A program made the position numbers and the translations under genes. DNA of 64,000 nt from Hydrogenobacter thermophilus TK-6 (lineage in GTDB: Bacteria; Aquificota; Aquificia; Aquificales; Aquificaceae): contig NC_013799.1 in NCBI RefSeq assembly GCF_000010785.1, forward strand, positions 1,178,001 to 1,242,000, given 5' to 3'. Under the pieces are notes generated by a model, which saw only the letters and a list, made by a program, of their open reading frames with translations, did not search any database and was not told the origin of the DNA. Numbering within the stretch: the stretch's first letter is position 1; every line of letters starts with the position of its first letter. Of the stretch, positions 32,695-44,156 are shown piece by piece.

Positions 32695-33310
32695 CCTCTA
32701 TGGCTACCAAAACTGGTGGCCAATTGACGAGGAGTATCACAAAAATATGGGCACAGACCCAAGGGACGAGGTAATAATCTCAGCGGTGCTGACCCAAAAC
32801 ACCAGCTGGAAAAATGTGGAGAGGAGTCTGGAAAGGATAAAAAGAGAGGGAATTCTGTCTCTTGAGTTTGTGAGAAGCGTTGATGAAAAGACTCTGCAAG
32901 ACCTTATAAGACCAGCAGGTTTTTACACGCTAAAATCTAAGAGACTCAAAGAGCTGGCACTCTTTATGAACCCAACGGAAAAAGTCAAATACGTGAGTCG
33001 CGGAGATTTACTGAAGATAAAGGGAATAGGAAGAGAAACTGCAGATGTTATACTTCTTTATGCAGGAGGTAGGCTCTACTTCGTTATAGATAAATACACA
33101 CAGCGTTTTATAGAGAGATTTTACGGACTAAAAGGCAGCTACGAGAGTCTCAAAAACTTTTTTGAGGAAAACCTACCAAAAGATGTAAAAGTTTATAAGG
33201 AATTTCATGCCCTAATGGATGAGCATGCCAAAAGGTTTTGTAAGAGCATCCCCCTCTGTGGAGGATGCCCATTAAAAGATATGTGCATCAATGCAAGCCC
33301 ATCCTCTTGA
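32648..33310 (+). CDS. Endonuclease III-like HhH-GPD DNA glycosylase
   Basis: A 220-residue base-excision-repair glycosylase. It has VLTQNTSWKNVERSL, the helix-hairpin-helix LLKIKGIGRETADVILLYA (about 120-138) and the catalytic Asp region YFVIDKYTQRFIERF, followed by a C-terminal iron-sulfur loop with cysteines spaced C-x5-C-x2-C-x5-C. Canonical Nth has C-x6-C-x2-C-x5-C. The WWP and NTSWKNVE features suggest the 3-methyladenine (MagIII-like) branch rather than Nth itself. The 5' end overlaps the kinase gene by 47 bases, so the true start could be later. Confidence 0.82.
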   Translation: MSLKISLRKLYEKLLDLYGYQNWWPIDEEYHKNMGTDPRDEVIISAVLTQNTSWKNVERSLERIKREGILSLEFVRSVDEKTLQDLIRPAGFYTLKSKRLKELALFMNPTEKVKYVSRGDLLKIKGIGRETADVILLYAGGRLYFVIDKYTQRFIERFYGLKGSYESLKNFFEENLPKDVKVYKEFHALMDEHAKRFCKSIPLCGGCPLKDMCINASPSS

Positions 33311-33917
33311 GTAGTCTTCCTCTCCAGACCCATATGAGCACACCCATCACTATAAGATAAGCTATGGTAAAAACTCCCATGAGCGTTCTCTTTGCCTTCT
33401 CTTGAGGGGAAGGTTCAGAAACGGACTTTAGATAAGCTATAATTTTGGCGGTTTCTTCAGGTCTTCCCGTCATGACGGCGGGCATGGATGTGCCTGGGAG
33501 TACCTTCTGCGGGTCAAGTATGAAGTTAAAGAGGTACTCTTTACCTCTGGAAAGGTACATGGTGGATAGGTCTGGGGGAACTTTGCCGAAAGATTCTTTA
33601 AGCTGAGAGAGCTCTGTGTAAAAAGCGCTCTCGTAAACCTCGTTGGGAAGTATCTTTCCGTACTTTTCCTGCAGAACCTTAAGGTTAGGATTTGCCTGTA
33701 CGGAAGAGGGATAAACCGCGTCATACCTTACCGAATGACAGGCTTGGCAGTTCTGTTCAAAGAGCTGTTTTCCCTCTTTGGCATATCTCACATCTTGTAC
33801 TATTTTCTCGTATTGGGCAGGCATTTCATACCTTTCATGCGGTGCAAAGATGTTGTTTATCCAAATGATGTAGAAGAAGGCAAGGGTCAAAATGGTGAAA
33901 AAGACAGCTTTAACCAT
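33288..33917 (-). CDS. petC: Cytochrome c1 subunit of the bc1 complex
   Basis: A 209-residue membrane-anchored c-type cytochrome with an N-terminal hydrophobic segment (FFTILTLAFFYIIWI), the haem motif CQACH (about 43-47), a methionine ligand candidate in PGTSMPAVMTG and a C-terminal anchor (LMGVFTIAYLIVMGVLIWVW). It accepts electrons from the Rieske centre and passes them to soluble cytochrome c. It is the third gene of the minus-strand Rieske-cyt b-cyt c1 operon. Confidence 0.92.
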   Translation of the reverse strand: MVKAVFFTILTLAFFYIIWINNIFAPHERYEMPAQYEKIVQDVRYAKEGKQLFEQNCQACHSVRYDAVYPSSVQANPNLKVLQEKYGKILPNEVYESAFYTELSQLKESFGKVPPDLSTMYLSRGKEYLFNFILDPQKVLPGTSMPAVMTGRPEETAKIIAYLKSVSEPSPQEKAKRTLMGVFTIAYLIVMGVLIWVWRGRLLKRMGLH

Positions 33918-33918
33918 C

Positions 33919-35103
33919 TTACTTACCTCCTCTCGCTTTGTACCAGCCCCACTCTATAACAGATATTACAGGAAGGGATATAAAGAAGGCAAAGAGGGTT
34001 GCTGTAAAGGTAAGACCCAGCATGGCGTTGGTGGGAGTGGGTGGCATGGTACCCAGTATGGTAAGAGCCATGGCGGATATAACCAGCACTATGTACATCA
34101 CAAAGAAGAGAGGTCTTTTTCTCGCGCTTTTGAAGGGTGAGAAATCAAGGAAGGGAAGCAGGAGCAGTAGTAAAAGCGTTAAGCTGAAGGCTATAAAGCC
34201 TAGAAACTTCTGGGGAATAGACCTGAATATGGTGTAAAAAGCCAGAAGGTACCACTCGGGTGCTATGTGAGGAGGTGTCTTAAAGGGGTTTGCGGGCTCA
34301 AAGTTATCCGCAGGCAGGAAGTGGTGCATGTAAAAGAAAACAAAGAAGAAGAAAACAGCAAGGTAACCCATTACATAGGCACCTTCCTTTAGGGTCATAT
34401 AAGGATGGAAGGGAACGCCTTCCTTCTTCTTGTCTATCTCTACACCCTCGGGGTTTGATATACCCGCAGCCCTGACCAGATAGAGGTGAAAGCCCACAAG
34501 TCCTAAAAGTATAAGGGGCAAGAGCCATATGTGAAGTCCAAAGAACCTTCCCAGGGTTATCTGGCCAAGCTCGTATCCGCCCTTCATCCAGACAGATATC
34601 GTCTCACCTAAAGCGCCGGGTATGGCAGTAGGTATCTCTGTGGTGACCACCATACCCCAGTAGGAGAGCTGTCCCCATGGTAAAAGATAGCCTGAAAGTG
34701 CAGTAGCTAAGAGTATGAAAAATATGAACCATCCCACTATCCATGTTAACTCCCTGGGTTTTTTGTAAGCGTTGTAGTAAATGCCGGTGAACATGTGAAG
34801 GTAAACGAGCGCCAGAAAGAAGTTCGCTCCTGCGGCATGCACATGTCTGAATAGCCACATGAAGGGTATCTCTTTCATTATGGTGTAGTTGGCGCTGTCA
34901 AAGGCTGCATGAACATTGGGCTGATAGTACATGGTAAGAAATATACCCGAGATGATCTGTATGGCAAAGGCTATGAGAGCCATAACACCAAAGGCATACG
35001 GAAAAGTTAAGTTCTTAGGCACTTTGTATTCCACCATCTGTGACTGCCAGAGTTCGCTTATGTGAGTCCTTTCATCTATCCACTTTCCTATCCTTCCAAA
35101 CAT
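33919..35103 (-). CDS. petB: Cytochrome b subunit of the bc1 complex
   Basis: A 394-residue polytopic protein with eight or more membrane helices. It shows the first haem-ligand helix (FRHVHAAGANFFLALVYLHMF), the second pair of histidines (FFGLHIWLLPLILLGLVGFHLYLVR, here split for reading), the Qo-site PEWY motif (IAPEWYLLAFY) and GYLLPWGQLSYWG. It is full length, not the split b6/subunit IV form. It oxidises quinol from Sqr among other sources. Confidence 0.95.
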   Translation of the reverse strand: MFGRIGKWIDERTHISELWQSQMVEYKVPKNLTFPYAFGVMALIAFAIQIISGIFLTMYYQPNVHAAFDSANYTIMKEIPFMWLFRHVHAAGANFFLALVYLHMFTGIYYNAYKKPRELTWIVGWFIFFILLATALSGYLLPWGQLSYWGMVVTTEIPTAIPGALGETISVWMKGGYELGQITLGRFFGLHIWLLPLILLGLVGFHLYLVRAAGISNPEGVEIDKKKEGVPFHPYMTLKEGAYVMGYLAVFFFFVFFYMHHFLPADNFEPANPFKTPPHIAPEWYLLAFYTIFRSIPQKFLGFIAFSLTLLLLLLLPFLDFSPFKSARKRPLFFVMYIVLVISAMALTILGTMPPTPTNAMLGLTFTATLFAFFISLPVISVIEWGWYKARGGK

Positions 35104-35115
35104 GCCTCAACCTCC

Positions 35116-35634
35116 TCAGGTTTGTTCTTTTATAAATCCGGGTTCACCTATGACCAGCTTATTACCTTGAAGATTCTGGGGTGGTATGTGAAGAGGCAAA
35201 GGAGGAGGACCCGCTATGTTATCACCCCACGGTGAGTAAAAGCCTCCATGACAGGGACAGTGAAAGACTGGATAGTTGTATTCAGCTTCACCCTGAGGTT
35301 TCCAAAGAGGAATGCATCCAAGATGCGTGCAAACCGCTATGAGAGCATAAGCACTGTGCCCCTCAAGAAGTTTTCTGTTTTTATCCTCCTTGGTAGTACC
35401 GTTCCACTGGAAGTTGGTGGGCAGATGCACCACGAAAACAGGCTTGCCCTTCCATGAGACCACCCTTACAGTCCCTTCCGGGATTTGTGATATGTCCACT
35501 TCCACCTTAGCAGCAGCTAAGGATGCGGCACTGGGAGCAAGAGTCTTAATTATGGGATACAAAACCCCTGCAACACCCACTACTCCCAGCCCGCCTATGG
35601 CAAGACTTATGAGGTCTCTCCTTGAGGCTTCCAT
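35116..35634 (-). CDS. petA: Rieske iron-sulfur subunit of the bc1 complex
   Basis: A 172-residue protein with an N-terminal membrane anchor/Tat-like segment (RRDLISLAIGGLGVVGVAG, twin Arg at 5-6) and the two Rieske boxes CTHLGCIP (about 102-109) and CPCHGGFYS (about 126-134), which bind the [2Fe-2S] cluster through two Cys and two His. The first gene of the bc1 operon. It has a good AGGAGG ribosome site, and the -10-like TATAAT at 35670-35675 lies in repeat copy A. Confidence 0.95.
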   Translation of the reverse strand: MEASRRDLISLAIGGLGVVGVAGVLYPIIKTLAPSAASLAAAKVEVDISQIPEGTVRVVSWKGKPVFVVHLPTNFQWNGTTKEDKNRKLLEGHSAYALIAVCTHLGCIPLWKPQGEAEYNYPVFHCPCHGGFYSPWGDNIAGPPPLPLHIPPQNLQGNKLVIGEPGFIKEQT

Positions 35635-35652: not shown

Positions 35653-35752
35653 ATATTCATAACGAATTAATTATATCACCAAAAAGCAAAAGAGATAAAA
35701 GGGGTTTTTAATACTTTTTGTCTATTTAAAAATTCTTGCATATAATTATAAA
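35653..35752. repeat. Direct repeat copy A: bidirectional promoter upstream of the bc1 operon
   Basis: About 100 bases that recur in the same orientation at 39358-39455. The first 62 bases differ at only two positions; the rest is more diverged with one single-base gap. A minus-strand TATAAT (35670-35675) faces the Rieske gene. On the plus strand TTGTCT (35718-35723), 17 bases and TATAAT (35741-35746) point into the inserted DNA. It ends at the insertion-sequence-like end that follows. Confidence 0.8.
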
Positions 35753-35754
35753 CT

Positions 35755-35777
35755 CACGCCGGGTGAGAAATTCAGAA
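35755..35777 (+). repeat. Solo insertion-sequence terminal inverted repeat
   Basis: These 23 bases match the left end of the insertion sequence at 38612-38634 in all but about five positions (shared core GTGAGAAA and TCAGAA). No transposase of that type follows directly. With the end at 39341-39357 it bounds the whole 3.6 kb inserted block. Confidence 0.65.
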
Positions 35778-36080
35778 AGCCTGTAGCTTCTTAGAAAAAA
35801 GTACCCCTCCTCCTAAGGGGATGTAATTGAGAATATAATATGCTAAACCTTTAGCATAAAGTCCCTGCAAGTATTAAGGCAAAAGGCGTAAATATCTCTT
35901 GGACGAAGGCCATAAGGTAAGCATAGAGGCTATACGGGAGTGGTTCCATTCAGTACAGTAAGTAAGGTACTTAGAGCCATGTACGCATAGGCATTTTGGG
36001 TTTACTTGAATGAGAGCAAAATAAAGACCTTTGGGAAGAGCAATGTTGTTTGGAATGCAAAATATGAAACTGCATGAAGT
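35778..36080 (+). pseudogene. Decayed transposase remnant and hairpins in the bc1-glycosyltransferase gap
   Basis: No intact gene. Two short hairpins occur: CCCCT/AGGGG (35804-35820) and a 9-base dyad TATGCTAAA/TTTAGCATA (35839-35858). Downstream, short frames separated by stops read KYLLDEGHKVSIEAIREWF and YLNESKIKTFGKSNVVWNAK, which look like pieces of a DDE transposase of another insertion sequence, perhaps IS6-like. I cannot name the family with confidence. Confidence 0.4.
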
Positions 36081-37439
36081 CTATACCTTACTGGAAGTTA
36101 AAAGTTGACATGGTCTCCTGCCAAGCCAGCTAAACACCAGAAAACATACAAAGAACAGAAAAGAAACAATGCAAACATATACCCCTTCCCACCTTTTACC
36201 CTTTAGACTTGCAATAAGCACAATAAATGTTAAAATCAGCATAGCAAACTCTCCTATATACAAGTGTCTTTCTTTAACATTGGACTTGGGTGTCCTGTAA
36301 AAAGACACTTTTAGCTTAAGGAAAGCTCTAATAGGTGCGTAGCTCATAGGAAAGAAGAGCGAAAAGTAAAAAAGCAGAGCTATAAAAGCGTCTGAATAAG
36401 AAATTCCGTCCAATTTTCTGTAGATGTGCATAAAGCTGTAAACCCTAGAAAGCAAAAATCCGCTCAGTAGCCCGACCCCCAGCCAACTTAACCACCCTCC
36501 TAGCAGAGAAAAGACTAAGGAAATTAACAAAGGAGTGTGCCAAACTGCGTTTTGTATCCAAAAGGCTACCTTTTGTTTTGCTCTAAGATTTTTTCCAAAG
36601 GTTAACTCCCAAAAATGTTTAAGTATTGTTTGTGCGTTGCCATATGCCCACCTAAATCTTTGCTGCCTGCAGGAAAACCATGTGAACGGCATAAGACCTT
36701 TTCCCACGCTCTCGTCCACATAAGCACCCTTAAAACCCTTTAGGTTTATCCTAAGCCCCATTTCGCTGTCTTCGGTTATCACTTCATCACTCCACCTACC
36801 GGCTTTTTCTAAACATTCCCTTTTTATAAACCCTACAGTTCCCATAAAGGATACAGCCTCCAGCACATGACACATTCTCATTATCACCGCAAAAAAGTAC
36901 CTATAAGACAGGTACATAGCCCTGAAAAAGAGCGTGTTGGGATAGTCCCTGTAGTCTTGGGGAAACTGTACTACAGACCAACCTTTTTGTGTGTAGCTAA
37001 CACCCCTTTTTATAAAGTCCCTTCTTACTGTATAATCGCTGTCTACTACAGCCAGCACCTGGGTTTTAGGGTTCATAAGCTCAAGCGCTTTGTTAAGAGT
37101 CCCACCTTTAAAGCCATGGGTTCGTATGTGGTAATATTTACAAACCTCGCTCTCCTGGCAGTATTTACTTATAGGTTTTCTAAGGTGGCGGCAAGGGGTA
37201 TTGTTGACCAGCGCTAACACCTCATACTCCTTGTAGTCTTGTTTTTTTAAACTTTCAAGGGTTTGAAGAACCACCTCAGGTGGCTCTTTGTGTATTGGCA
37301 CATGCACGCTAACAAACTGATCGTGAAAGCTTTCTACACTTTCAGGCTTTTTGTAGTCAAAAGCCTTTCTCAGAAAATAGGTTTCTATTGTATAAGGCAA
37401 AAGCCCAAAAAGGAAGAAAAACAGCTCCATAGTATCCAA
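36081..37439 (-). CDS. Processive family 2 glycosyltransferase (cellulose-synthase-like)
   Basis: A 452-residue membrane glycosyltransferase. An N-terminal membrane segment is followed by the GT-A catalytic domain with the D-x-D in VVDSDYTV (about 132-139), the acceptor-site TED in VITEDSEMGLR and the Q-x2-R-W motif QQRFRWAYG (about 264-272), then four or more C-terminal membrane helices. These motifs define processive beta-glycan synthases that secrete polysaccharide. The product is unknown. It lies within the inserted block, downstream of the GT4 gene on the same strand. Confidence 0.88.
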   Translation of the reverse strand: MDTMELFFFLFGLLPYTIETYFLRKAFDYKKPESVESFHDQFVSVHVPIHKEPPEVVLQTLESLKKQDYKEYEVLALVNNTPCRHLRKPISKYCQESEVCKYYHIRTHGFKGGTLNKALELMNPKTQVLAVVDSDYTVRRDFIKRGVSYTQKGWSVVQFPQDYRDYPNTLFFRAMYLSYRYFFAVIMRMCHVLEAVSFMGTVGFIKRECLEKAGRWSDEVITEDSEMGLRINLKGFKGAYVDESVGKGLMPFTWFSCRQQRFRWAYGNAQTILKHFWELTFGKNLRAKQKVAFWIQNAVWHTPLLISLVFSLLGGWLSWLGVGLLSGFLLSRVYSFMHIYRKLDGISYSDAFIALLFYFSLFFPMSYAPIRAFLKLKVSFYRTPKSNVKERHLYIGEFAMLILTFIVLIASLKGKRWEGVYVCIVSFLFFVCFLVFSWLGRRPCQLLTSSKV

Positions 37440-37461
37440 CCTCCCTTTTGGTTAAAGATTG

Positions 37462-38592
37462 CTAGATTTTGGTGAGTATTAAATCAGGTCTATAAGAGAG
37501 AATCTTTTTCCTTATCTCATCCCAGCTTTCTATAACTTTTTGGTACACTTGTAGGTAGCCTTCTGTCATCTTTTGGTATGTAAAGTTTTCTTCTACGTGC
37601 CGCCTGCAATCTTCTGGGTTTATTTTATCAATGTACTTTTTGTAAGCTTTTACAAGTCCTTCTATTAAGTCTTCATCCATAAACTTTGGACGCTTTCTCA
37701 CTTTCACAAGAGTTCCTGTCTTGCCGTGCAGTACTATCTCCCTGGCAGAGCCCCTGTCTGCCACAAACACAGGAGTTCCACAAGCCATAGCCTCAATCAT
37801 CACAAGACCAAAAGGCTCTCTCCATTGCATGGGAAATATGAAGGCGGAGGCTTTGCTTAGGTATTCCACCTTTTCCTCAAACTCTACTTCTCCAACAAAG
37901 ATTACCTTTTTACCATCCACACGAGGTTTTATGTACTTTTGGAAGTACTCTTCTTCCTGTGGTGTGTCCACTTTCAGCATTAGGTATAGCTTTTTACCAA
38001 GGCGTTTGGCAACTTCTATAGCTTCGGCTACGCCTTTTTCAAAGGTAGATCTACCTATAAAAACCAAAAAGTCTTCCTTTTTTGGCTGGTAGGGGAAGAG
38101 TCTTACATCTATACCGTTATACACCGTGGCTACATAGTTAGCAAAAGGTAGCGGTTCTCTTTGATTGTTGGAAATAGACACCAGCTGAGCATAAGCCAAA
38201 TATGGAAACCTTTTGTATAGCCTTGAAAACCCTTCCAGAAGTGAGTGTATGGTAAATACCGCCGGCTTTTCCAAAAGGGTAAGAGTAAAGAACCACTGAG
38301 GGTTATGGGGGTAAAAATGAATGTGTATGATGTCAAACTCTTCCTGCTTGGCAAGCACTTGGCATGCTTCAAGATACTCGTAATAAGCAACTTTCTGCTG
38401 GTCTTTCCAACCAAGCGGCTGGCATATGGGAACTAAACGAGCGTCCACCTGAGACCCTTCAGTAGCAAAAAGAGTGCAGTTTATACCCTTTTCCCTAAGA
38501 CCTTTTATGATGTTATAAACTACCAGCTCTGTTCCGCCGTACTTTTGGGGTGGTATTTGGTATATGAGTGGTCCTACCTGCGCCACCCTCAT
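37462..38592 (-). CDS. Family 4 glycosyltransferase
   Basis: A 376-residue GT-B enzyme. The N-terminal domain begins with VAQVGPLIYQIPPQKYGGTELVV (glycine-rich acceptor side) and has HIHFYPHNP. The C-terminal donor domain has FIGRSTFEKGVAEAIEVAK, and the E-x7-E motif in EPFGLVMIEAMACGTPVF. It retains anomeric configuration; donor and acceptor are unknown. With the GT2 gene it forms a two-gene polysaccharide module. A TATAAT on this strand lies immediately upstream, next to the left end of the insertion sequence. Confidence 0.88.
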   Translation of the reverse strand: MRVAQVGPLIYQIPPQKYGGTELVVYNIIKGLREKGINCTLFATEGSQVDARLVPICQPLGWKDQQKVAYYEYLEACQVLAKQEEFDIIHIHFYPHNPQWFFTLTLLEKPAVFTIHSLLEGFSRLYKRFPYLAYAQLVSISNNQREPLPFANYVATVYNGIDVRLFPYQPKKEDFLVFIGRSTFEKGVAEAIEVAKRLGKKLYLMLKVDTPQEEEYFQKYIKPRVDGKKVIFVGEVEFEEKVEYLSKASAFIFPMQWREPFGLVMIEAMACGTPVFVADRGSAREIVLHGKTGTLVKVRKRPKFMDEDLIEGLVKAYKKYIDKINPEDCRRHVEENFTYQKMTEGYLQVYQKVIESWDEIRKKILSYRPDLILTKI

Positions 38593-38611
38593 TCTCTCGT
38601 TAATATTATAA

Positions 38612-39357
38612 TACGCTGAGTGAGAAAATCAGAATTGCCAAACAATAGTCTCTAATAAACTCCTCCCAGTTATGCAACTCATAGAAGAAACCCTCAGAAA
38701 AACCAAAGCAGGCAGAAAACCCAAAATCTCCAACGCCCAAATAGCTACTCTATTCATCCTCTCCTGCATAACAAACACACCTGTCCTAAAACTCGCTCAA
38801 TTCCTAATACATCCCAAGCTCAAGTCCTACCACATCTTCAGGAAAACAAGGATTAAAAGGATATACAAAATCCTGAGATATTATATGCATTCAAGAGTTA
38901 TGGCAGTAATAGTTCTAAAATTGAGGAGGTTATACAGTGAACACTACAAAAGAGAAGTATTGAGGAGTTATGCTATGGAGTGCTTGTAATGGTAGTTTGT
39001 GACACAGATGGTATTGTTTATGACCTTTGGTTTCATCCTGCGAGTATGAACGAGGTTAAGTCTTTGAAGCTAAGGGTAAGTAAGGGGTTTTGGTTGAGGG
39101 AGTTATTGAAGAGGTTTGAGCTAATAGGGGACAAAGGATACAGGCATTGTGAGTATGTGAAGGTATGTGAGAGCAAGGAAGAGAAAGCTCATAGGCAAGT
39201 AGTGGAGGGGGTGTTTTCATGGCTAAAGAGGTTTAACTATGTGAGTGGGTGGAGGAAGGGGATTACGTTTTTGACCTACTTATATGCTTATGCTTTGGGT
39301 TATAGTTTCTTTAGAAAAAGGGAGGTTCTGACATGTGCCTAATTTCTCACTCGGCGT
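38612..39357 (+). mobile_element. Defective IS982/IS5-like insertion sequence with terminal inverted repeats
   Basis: About 746 bases bounded by imperfect inverted ends: left ACGCTGAGTGAGAAAATCAG and, read inward from the right, ACGCCGAGTGAGAAATTAGG. The transposase inside is split and lacks a stretch, which fits the shorter length than the 900-1000 bases usual for such elements. I see no clear short target-site duplication at its edges. Confidence 0.75.
38672..39342 (+). pseudogene. DDE transposase, internally deleted and out of frame
   Basis: The N-terminal 105 codons (TKAGRKPKISNAQIATLF; the DNA-binding part) are in one frame, and the C-terminal 120 codons are in another, starting at about 38980. 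The C-terminal piece has the second acidic motif IGDKGYRH and a glutamate in RQVVEGVFSWLKRF, plus LWFHPASMNEVKSLK typical of IS982-like enzymes. The segment that should hold the first catalytic Asp is missing at the junction near 38945-38980, so the enzyme should be inactive. Confidence 0.75.
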
Positions 39358-39455
39358 ATATTCATAACGGATTAATTATATCACCAAAAAGCAAAAGAGA
39401 TAAAAGGAGTTTTTAATACCTTTTACTTGTGATGGAAATTCTTATATAATTATAA
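39358..39455. repeat. Direct repeat copy B: bidirectional promoter upstream of sqr
   Basis: The second copy of the 35653-35752 sequence, same orientation. It begins directly at the right end of the insertion sequence. Its minus-strand TATAAT (around 39375-39380) would now read toward the insertion sequence and the minus-strand glycosyltransferases, while its plus-strand promoter faces sqr. Confidence 0.8.
39422..39450 (+). promoter_or_regulatory. Candidate sqr promoter
   Basis: TTTACT (39422-39427), a 17-base spacer and TATAAT (39445-39450) lie 40 bases upstream of the sqr ATG, which has a good AAGGAGG site. The same arrangement, TTGTCT-17-TATAAT, is seen in copy A. Confidence 0.6.
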
Positions 39456-39490
39456 GCTGGTGTAATAAAAGTTTTTAAGGAGGTTAAGTT

Positions 39491-40783
39491 ATGAGCAAGC
39501 ACATAGTTATACTTGGTGGTGGAATGGGTGGAATAGCCACCGCTTATGATCTGAGGAAGCTGGACAAAAGTCTTAAGATCACAGTGGTGTCAGGAAGACC
39601 CTATTTTGGTTTTACGCCTGCGTATCCTCACTTAGCCCTTGGTTGGAGAAAATTTGATGACATTACTATGCCATTGGCTCCCTTACTTTCCAAGCACGGC
39701 ATAGACTTTATTAACGAGAACGGGGAGAGCATAGACCCTGATGCTAACAAGGTAAAAACTACAGGCGGCAAGGAGATCTCTTACGATTACTTGGTTATAG
39801 CTACTGGTCCCAAGCTGGTCTTTGGCGCGGAAGGCCAAGAACAGCACTCCACATCCGTATGTACTGCAGAGCATGCTATGGAACTAAACAGAAAACTTGA
39901 GGAGTTTTATAAAGACCCTGGACATGTGGTGGTGGGTGCCATACCCGGCGTGAGTTGCTTTGGTCCTGCTTACGAGTTTGCCTTTATGCTTCATCACGAG
40001 CTTAAAAAGAGGGGTATAAGACACAAAGTGCCTATAACTTATATAACCTCAGAACCTTATGTGGGACACATGGGGCTTGGTGGGGTTGGACCCTCCCGAA
40101 GGCTTATGGAAGACACCATGGCAGAGAGAAGTATAAAATACATAGCCAATGTGAAGATAACTAAGGTGGAGCCTGATAAAGTTATTTACGAAGACTTAGA
40201 AGGAAAGACCTATGAGGTTCCGTGCAAGCTTTCCATGATTATGCCAAGATTCATGGGTCCAGATGTGGTGGCTTCCGCGGGAGATAAGGTGGCAAATCCT
40301 GCCAACAAGATGGTTATAGTAAACAGGTGTTTTCAGAATCCTACATACAAAAACATATTTGGCGTAGGTGTAGTAACTGCTATACCTCCTGTTGAACAAA
40401 CACCTATACCTACAGGCGCACCCAAGACGGGCATGATGATTGAGCAGATGGCTTTGGCTGTTGCTCACAACATAGTAAACGACATAAGAAACTCCACAGA
40501 CAGGTATGCACCTGAGCTTTCTGCCATATGCGTGGCGGATATGGGAGGGGATGCTATGGGATTCTTTGCTTCTCCAGTCCTTCCACCCAGGTCTGTGGTC
40601 AAATACAAGAAGGCTGTCTGGATGCACTGGTTTAAGTCCGCCTTTGAAAAGTACTTCATGTGGAAGGTAAAGACAGGTGATGTGGCTCCTTTCTTTGAGG
40701 AAGGCATGCTAAAGCTTATGTTTAGTGTCCATCCCATACATCTGTGCAAGGATTGTGCGGGTTCTCCAGGATCTCCCTGTTAA
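39491..40783 (+). CDS. sqr: Sulfide:quinone oxidoreductase
   Basis: A peripheral membrane flavoprotein that oxidises sulfide to sulfur/polysulfide and reduces quinone. It has 430 residues. The FAD motif is VILGGGMGGIATAYDL (about 6-21). Cysteines in SVCTAEH, GVSCFGPAYEF and AICVADMG fall exactly at 124, 156 and 347, the positions I recall for the redox and bridging cysteines of the A. aeolicus enzyme. VGHMGLGGVG and the C-terminal amphipathic region (WMHWFKSAFEKYFMWKVKTG) for membrane insertion are also present. The tail ends in a C-x2-C and final Cys (CKDCAGSPGSPC). It feeds the bc1 complex encoded nearby. Confidence 0.95.
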   Translation: MSKHIVILGGGMGGIATAYDLRKLDKSLKITVVSGRPYFGFTPAYPHLALGWRKFDDITMPLAPLLSKHGIDFINENGESIDPDANKVKTTGGKEISYDYLVIATGPKLVFGAEGQEQHSTSVCTAEHAMELNRKLEEFYKDPGHVVVGAIPGVSCFGPAYEFAFMLHHELKKRGIRHKVPITYITSEPYVGHMGLGGVGPSRRLMEDTMAERSIKYIANVKITKVEPDKVIYEDLEGKTYEVPCKLSMIMPRFMGPDVVASAGDKVANPANKMVIVNRCFQNPTYKNIFGVGVVTAIPPVEQTPIPTGAPKTGMMIEQMALAVAHNIVNDIRNSTDRYAPELSAICVADMGGDAMGFFASPVLPPRSVVKYKKAVWMHWFKSAFEKYFMWKVKTGDVAPFFEEGMLKLMFSVHPIHLCKDCAGSPGSPC

Positions 40784-43051: not shown

Positions 43052-44156
43052 TTATAGACATTTATTCTCCATAAAAGGGAGTTTTGCAGGGTAGGGGACT
43101 ATAGGCTCCCTACCAAACCGTTGGAGAATGTTCACCGCCCCAACTACATCAGCATCATTCTCATATCCACATCTGATGCAGTGAAACCATTCCCCATCAC
43201 GGTTTGCACTGTCCACATAACCACACTGGGGACAGCTCCTGCTGGTGTTAAAAGCAGGAACTATGCGCCACTGGACTCCAGCTACCTCGCACAGCTCCCT
43301 TATTCGCTTTAAAACATAAGAATAAGTCCAATAGTTAAACCTCCTGTTAACCAACCTGCTCCATTTCCCCCTTTTTCCTCTCTTGAGATTTCTCAGGTTC
43401 TCTAAAACAGGACTAAAAGTCCCATCTATCGCTCGTTTCAAAATTCTGTTTATTTCAGTCTTCAGAAAATGCAAAGCTCTCTTAAACCTTTTACTTCCTT
43501 GTTTTTTGGGTAAAATCCTCTTTTCAATGATTTCTTTCACTTCTCTTCCAAAAACCTGCCCATCAGATAAAGTTAAAAGCTTTCTGTATCCAATATCAAT
43601 TCCTTTTGGTTGTTTTTCCTTCAATTCAACTCTCTTTTTGAAAGTCAGCTTTAAGAACCACTTATTGTTTTTCTTTAACAACTCCACATCCGAAGCCATT
43701 TCCCATTCATCAAAGTATTTTTTTTGCATAATCATAGTTCTTAACTGGAAAATTAATCCATCTTTGACCTTCTGGGTCTCTAAGTCTAAACCAGAAATCA
43801 AATGAGTTTTCTCCCTTCTCAAATTTGTAAAATCTCTGATCCAGTTTGCTACTTACTCTTTTGATTTCAGGTTTGCTTATCTTTTTGCCTTTCTTTTTCT
43901 TTTCAAAGATACTTTTCAATATGTCAGTTGCCTGAGCTAAAGCACATCCCAGATATCTCTTTGATAACCAGGTATCATAAGGATAGTTTTTCACATCCTC
44001 ATAGGTAGGAAACCTATCTTCTGTAAATCCCTTATCCGCAAAATATTGTAAAGCCTTTCTGTATTCTTCCCATAGACTATCAAGAAACTTTTTCTTACCA
44101 GTATTTGCAAATTCTAAACTGAATAATAAACTTCTTTTTATCTCCTGCACTCTCAT
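43052..44156 (-). pseudogene. tnpB: TnpB RNA-guided nuclease gene (IS605/IS1341 type), +1 frameshift at an A8 run
   Basis: Two overlapping frames make one TnpB of about 365 residues. The N-terminal part starts at 44156 (RVQEIKRSLLFSLEF) and is thrown out of frame at eight A (plus-strand T run 43718-43725); with seven A it continues as DYAKKYFDEWEM. The rest holds the RuvC residues in GIDIGYRKLL (Asp), PVLENLRNLKRGKRGKWS (Glu) and DADVVGAVNIL (Asp), and a four-Cys zinc ribbon (CPQCG, CIRCG). No tnpA is present. The 3' end, where a guide omega-RNA would form, runs into the mutS2 leader ten bases away. Confidence 0.82.

Follow-up and report, generated by a model that had tools for sequence, protein, structure and literature searches.

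The bc1 operon and the sqr gene of Hydrogenobacter thermophilus TK-6 face away from each other, each beside a near-copy of the same promoter-like sequence of about 100 bp, with an insert of 3.6 kb between the copies. The question is how one promoter came to stand twice. The original prediction proposed an ancestral divergent pair, bc1 <- P -> sqr (P, the shared promoter), split by an insertion that left a copy of P on each side. Such a locus would be a natural case of a mobile element driving apart two divergent operons that serve central energy metabolism, with neither side losing its promoter. The window, a stretch of 64,000 nucleotides, covers positions 1178001-1242000 of the genome (1,743,135 bp, single contig), and its relevant features are collected in Table 1. 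The predicted gene identities (Rieske protein, cytochrome b, cytochrome c1, GT2, GT4 and an SQR-like flavoprotein) were all borne out.

Table 1. Features of the bc1-sqr locus, in window coordinates
Feature	Position	Strand	Remarks
Cytochrome c1	33288-33917	minus	bc1 operon
Cytochrome b	33919-35103	minus	bc1 operon
Rieske protein	35116-35634	minus	first gene of bc1 operon
Copy A, left arm of direct repeat	35653-35754		divergent bc1/sqr promoter; repeat search, alignment
Copy A bc1 -10	35675-35670	minus	TATAAT
Copy A sqr-type -35/-10	35718-35723 / 35741-35746	plus	TTGTCT/TATAAT, 17-base spacer
LE1, left terminal inverted repeat of element	35756-35805	plus	ACGCCGGGTGAGAAATTCAG...; remnant of one IS subtype
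GT2-family glycosyltransferase	36081-37439	minus	cargo; homologue adjoins frr in G001/G003/G004
GT4-family glycosyltransferase	37462-38592	minus	cargo
Inner flank of second IS	38591-38612		22 bp, AT...AT, ATTCTCTCGTTAATATTATAAT; GT4 start codon through a TATAAT
Second IS copy (LE2...RE2)	38613-39357	plus	defective
LE2	38613		start of defective IS
RE2, right terminal inverted repeat	39338-39357	minus	ACGCCGAGTGAGAAATTAGG on minus strand
Copy B, right arm of direct repeat	39358-39458		repeat search, alignment
Copy B orphan bc1 -10	39380-39375	minus	TATAAT
Copy B sqr -35/-10	39422-39427 / 39445-39450	plus	TTTACT/TATAAT, 17-base spacer
sqr, SQR-like FAD oxidoreductase	39491-40783	plus	flavoprotein

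The repeated promoter and its ancestral setting

Copies A and B form a direct repeat in which 84 of 103 alignment columns are identical. The differences are unevenly spread, with 2 in the first 62 columns, as had been predicted, and 17 in the other 41 (Fisher p 1.2e-6). Many further copies of the 100-bp unit, as in an ordinary repeat family, had been named as evidence against a split promoter; a search of the 1.74-Mb genome matched the unit at two places and no more (E 5.7e-47 and 2.1e-27), and a repeat family was rejected on this count. Each copy contained all the elements ascribed to it, namely a minus-strand TATAAT and a plus-strand -35/-10 pair with a 17-base spacer. A consensus scan by itself was no better than chance, finding 7 promoter-like matches in the region versus 8.6 in shuffled sequence and no full -35/-10 on the bc1 side. 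Better evidence for promoter function is provided by conservation: when A and B were aligned with the intergenic regions of six relatives (G001-G004, G014 and G021), both putative -10 blocks were conserved, the first corresponding to the bc1 -10 region of the minus-strand promoter (TCATAAC...TTAATTATAT) and the second to the sqr -10 region (ATATAATTATAA).

When 40 related genomes were searched with the promoter and with the Rieske and SQR proteins, the Rieske gene and sqr proved to be divergent neighbours, separated by one single-copy intergenic region, in the same six relatives, four of the same genus (G001-G004) and two of another genus of the family (G014 and G021). Genomes with a single promoter copy and no insert, which the original prediction had proposed to look for, thus exist. 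In other members of the family, e.g. G005, G012 and G019, the Rieske gene and sqr are distant from each other. As the single-copy empty sites show, bc1 <- P -> sqr is the ancestral order for this part of the family, and the predicted split with a promoter copy left on each side gained support from them. The contrary possibility, that bc1 and sqr were never adjacent, was rejected for this genus and for that of G014 and G021.

Comparison with the empty site of G004 showed how the copies have fared. Copy B is identical to it in 98 of 103 columns, a smaller divergence than that between A and B, and therefore copy A must have changed quickly. Changes relative to G004 in the bc1 and sqr halves numbered 2 and 15 for copy A, and 0 and 2 for copy B. 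Nearly all the A/B divergence thus appears to lie on A and in its sqr-facing half, and these small numbers are as expected if the copies began identical and an orphaned half then decayed. A and B share one base absent from G003 and G004. The orphan bc1 half of B (39358-39420) carries no private change when compared with G004, though it no longer faces bc1; it may serve as upstream region of sqr, it may drive the GT genes, or sequence exchange between A and B may have kept it unchanged. In their divergence the two copies provide a natural test, on a small scale, of which half of the shared promoter is required by each operon.

Borders of the insert and the insertion-sequence group

The outer repeat, of 101-102 bp, adjoins the inverted ends of one IS group, with LE1 starting at 35756, RE2 ending at 39357 and gaps of 0-2 bp; its alignment score was 65.5 versus a shuffle maximum of 13. 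Within these borders, the LE1 remnant lies on the left, the defective IS on the right and the GT pair between them, LE1 and RE2 coming from different subtypes of the group. The transposase gene of the defective IS is broken into two ORF fragments (38672-38989 and 38980-39342), and an internal deletion has removed the segment bearing the putative first catalytic Asp (DGT). Insertion of this internal IS alone was rejected as the cause, there being no repeat across its own ends. The shared outer repeat suggests that the LE1...RE2 unit moved jointly, as a composite transposon would. Elsewhere in the window, at 43052-44156, two overlapping minus-strand ORFs split by a frameshift have, by eye only, the look of a TnpB/IS605 OrfB-type protein with a CPQCG...CIRCG zinc-finger motif.

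Long direct repeats proved to be the habit of this IS group. In 31 further elements from 7 Aquificota genomes, repeats of 23-38 bp (median 27) abutted the same ends. G043 contributed 23 copies of a 966-bp relative, 15 of them with repeats of 23-38 bp abutting the ends, and copies from G056, G038, G004, G019 and G036 behaved likewise. Most repeats begin and end with AT; TTATAA occurred in 12 of 31 versus 3.2 when shuffled, and TATAAT, on either strand, in 17 of 31 versus 6.0, an enrichment that holds for these exact words only. Insertion sites fell in no ORF of at least 90 amino acids in 24 of 32 cases, whereas the share for positions drawn at random from these loci was 16%. For the most part, the target repeats of the group lie in AT-rich, TATAAT-containing intergenic DNA. 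The idea that target promoters always have one orientation with respect to the transposase was considered and dropped, since perfect TATAAT was found on both strands and a loose 5/6 test was not significant. The boundaries of the A/B repeat scored below every training half-site in a half-site matrix, yet ranked among the best 11% and 6% of positions locally.

Elements of the group measure 966 bp in G043, 959 bp in G004 and 963-964 bp in G038 and G056, encode transposases of 276-283 amino acids and have terminal inverted repeats of the ACGCYGRGTGAGAAATT type, most copies starting with AC. Of 118 Aquificota genomes, 15 contained the transposase, and when 84,980 species genomes were scanned by a method that detects close relatives only, all loci returned were from Aquificota. 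Its best match was the NCBIfam IS982 model, below threshold (28.5 and 42 bits versus a cutoff of 130); a Pfam search with intact copies gave no match. Residues D109, D167 and E235, invariant in an alignment of only 4 sequences, are candidates for the D/D/E triad. No sequence relatives were found among solved structures, and the AlphaFold model (mean pLDDT 76) had as best PDB fold matches the mariner Mos1 transposases, weakly (E 3e-3, TM 0.24). The profile match suggests that the enzyme is a remote IS982 relative.

Two further arrangements were seen among the group's loci. At L197 (G043:C1:382000-386500), two elements occupy one promoter and the same target repeat is present three times; nested in the larger element are transposase ORFs of a different IS type, which by eye is IS110-like. 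In the Aquificota MAG QZM4, as read by eye, the 29-bp and 26-bp repeats flanking two IS copies are swapped between loci (L268/L269), as if recombination between copies had rearranged the genome. The group is multi-copy, with intact, near-identical copies in sequenced genomes (23 in one), which makes the origin of its long, variable target duplications open to study.

Cargo and the route to the present structure

The GT4/GT2 pair adjoins frr in three congeners (G001, G003 and G004), in G004 between frr and leuD. In H. thermophilus TK-6, frr and leuD are direct neighbours separated by about a dozen bases (L267 6694-6707), and the single GT4 gene of the genome lies within the insert. The GT genes are only 73-80% identical to those of congeners, and their identities group G000/G004 versus G001/G003 (unrooted), as do those of SQR. 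The inner flank of the second IS (38591-38612) has the look of a single arm from a normal target duplication. Because this 22-bp sequence begins at the GT4 start codon and ends in AT like an ordinary target half, the second IS probably first inserted in front of GT4; a search of the genome for a partner copy marking the donor site found none.

Other elements with the same ends carry cargo as well. One in this genome (223194-224883; L115 1695-3384), without transposase and flanked by direct repeats of 23-24 bp, encodes a BsaWI-like restriction enzyme and an N6/N4 DNA methylase, and in G019 an EAL-domain gene is enclosed by ends of this group and flanked by a 24-bp direct repeat (L210 475-2282; G019:C1:736974-738781). 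A shrunken unit related to the restriction-modification element was observed at 985710-986077 of the TK-6 genome.

Since the repeat abuts inverted IS ends and the group makes duplications of 23-38 bp elsewhere, target duplication is the leading explanation of the A/B repeat, contrary to the earlier judgement that it was far too long and diverged for a normal target-site duplication. We consider it fairly probable that the 3.6-kb insert is a mobile unit with IS borders, that it transposed into the promoter shared by bc1 and sqr, and that the doubling of this promoter is its target-site duplication. The unit would consist of LE1, the GT2/GT4 pair and the defective IS with RE2. In a single strand transfer, LE1 and RE2 would have acted as a pair and attacked P at points about 101 bp apart on its two strands, one next to the sqr -10 and the other close to the bc1 -10; repair of the gaps would have copied the divergent promoter in full. 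After insertion, bc1 would have kept copy A and sqr copy B; later, decay would have affected the unneeded sqr half of A, with B remaining near its ancestral state. Established parts of this account are the empty sites, the IS borders, the long duplications of the group, the same-ended cargo elements and the absence of the GT pair from its usual frr locus.

A duplication in one step is favoured over a route in two, not proven, because 101 bp exceeds all 31 other repeats of the group (23-38 bp). This length and the weak half-site scores count against a routine one-step event. The differing subtypes of LE1 and RE2, the quick change required of copy A, the defective state of the IS and the missing donor partner of the inner flank also weigh against the account. 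The final structure alone is compatible with both routes. In the two-step route, two IS copies would have made ordinary insertions, with duplications of about 25 bp, at the sqr -10 and at the bc1 -10, and unequal exchange between them would have placed the intervening segment on both sides of the IS, the glycosyltransferases having joined via the same IS copies. Exchange between IS copies with swapped target duplications occurs in the group (L187/L188 and L180/L186 in G043, and by eye L268/L269), and L197 is a case of one promoter struck twice with three repeat copies. About 70 bp separate two -10-like sites within P, each boundary could accommodate an AT...AT repeat of 22-24 bp, and the left and right ends do differ in subtype. 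Such a course would nevertheless take at least three events at one intergenic region and enough homology for recombination between subtypes, and no leftover repeat from a separate insertion is visible at the bc1/sqr intergenic region; we regard it as rather unlikely.

The remaining explanations are far less credible. Had the 100-bp promoter been duplicated in tandem beforehand by replication slippage, with the IS-bounded unit inserted between the copies later, the same final order would result, and the presence of only two copies fits this; however, the insertion would have had to strike the junction to within 2 bp at either border without itself producing a duplication, and no tandem duplication was found in the relatives examined, which makes this course very improbable. 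There is likewise but a slight chance that one copy is foreign, brought in when circular or transferred DNA with its own related bc1/sqr promoter integrated by a single homologous crossover. The copies do differ by about 18%, more than B differs from G004, and the modest identity of the GT genes to those of congeners would suit a foreign source. By contrast, the base shared by A and B to the exclusion of G003 and G004, the nearly identical bc1 halves and the SQR-like grouping of the GT identities speak against it, and exact IS ends at both borders would not be predicted.

Returning to transposition with target duplication, a wider reading of the whole group can be offered tentatively, with somewhat more doubt than confidence. 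An undescribed Aquificota IS group, remotely related to IS982, may insert into promoter DNA at -10-like sequences with a stagger that is long and variable (usually 23-38 bp, up to about 100 bp), thereby copying promoter cores to both sides, sparing host expression and letting cargo spread; the bc1/sqr locus would be its most extreme case, a divergent promoter having been copied whole.

Comparison with known systems

A description of this IS group was not found in the literature searched. Queries joining long target duplications with promoter and transposase gave no match, and those joining Aquificae with target site duplications found only PMC2266710. The nearest family in sequence is IS982, defined by a length of 0.85-1.28 kb, a single transposase of about 290 amino acids and terminal inverted repeats starting 5'-AC. 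The present elements resemble it in their length of about 1 kb, a transposase of about 280 amino acids with candidate D/D/E residues and 5'-AC ends, and differ in that the transposase falls below the NCBIfam IS982 cutoff and that their repeats, 23-38 bp in 31 elements and 101 bp at bc1/sqr, contrast with the 2-10 bp of IS982 (PMC7335449).

Long target repeats are known from other systems. Those of IS1549/IS1634 are likewise variable and range from 8 to 514 bp, which would take in 101 bp, and no mechanism had been proposed for them as of that report (PMC2266710); these elements, however, have a transposase family derived from IS4 and measure 1.5-2 kb, whereas repeats of the present group are mostly of 23-38 bp at AT-rich, -10-like sites. 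The IS1202 group also makes long duplications (16-28 bp), for which no target motif was found, and differs in its larger transposases (441-457 amino acids, ISAjo2 type) and 5'-TGT ends (PMC10132070). Insertion with long target duplication has been proposed for restriction-modification units (Nobusato 2000, as cited in PMC3031569). There too, long direct target repeats flank gene units, of which the present group has an example in this genome; unlike them, the present units are bounded by IS terminal inverted repeats, which points to a transposase-based cause. A preference for insertion near promoters is shared with TnGBS, ISLre2 and ISKra4, which insert upstream of the -35 at a fixed distance (PMC3942029), whereas in the present group the -10-like sequence falls inside the duplicated target. 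The IS group at the bc1/sqr locus thus combines features of IS982, IS1549/IS1634, IS1202, TnGBS-like elements and restriction-modification units.
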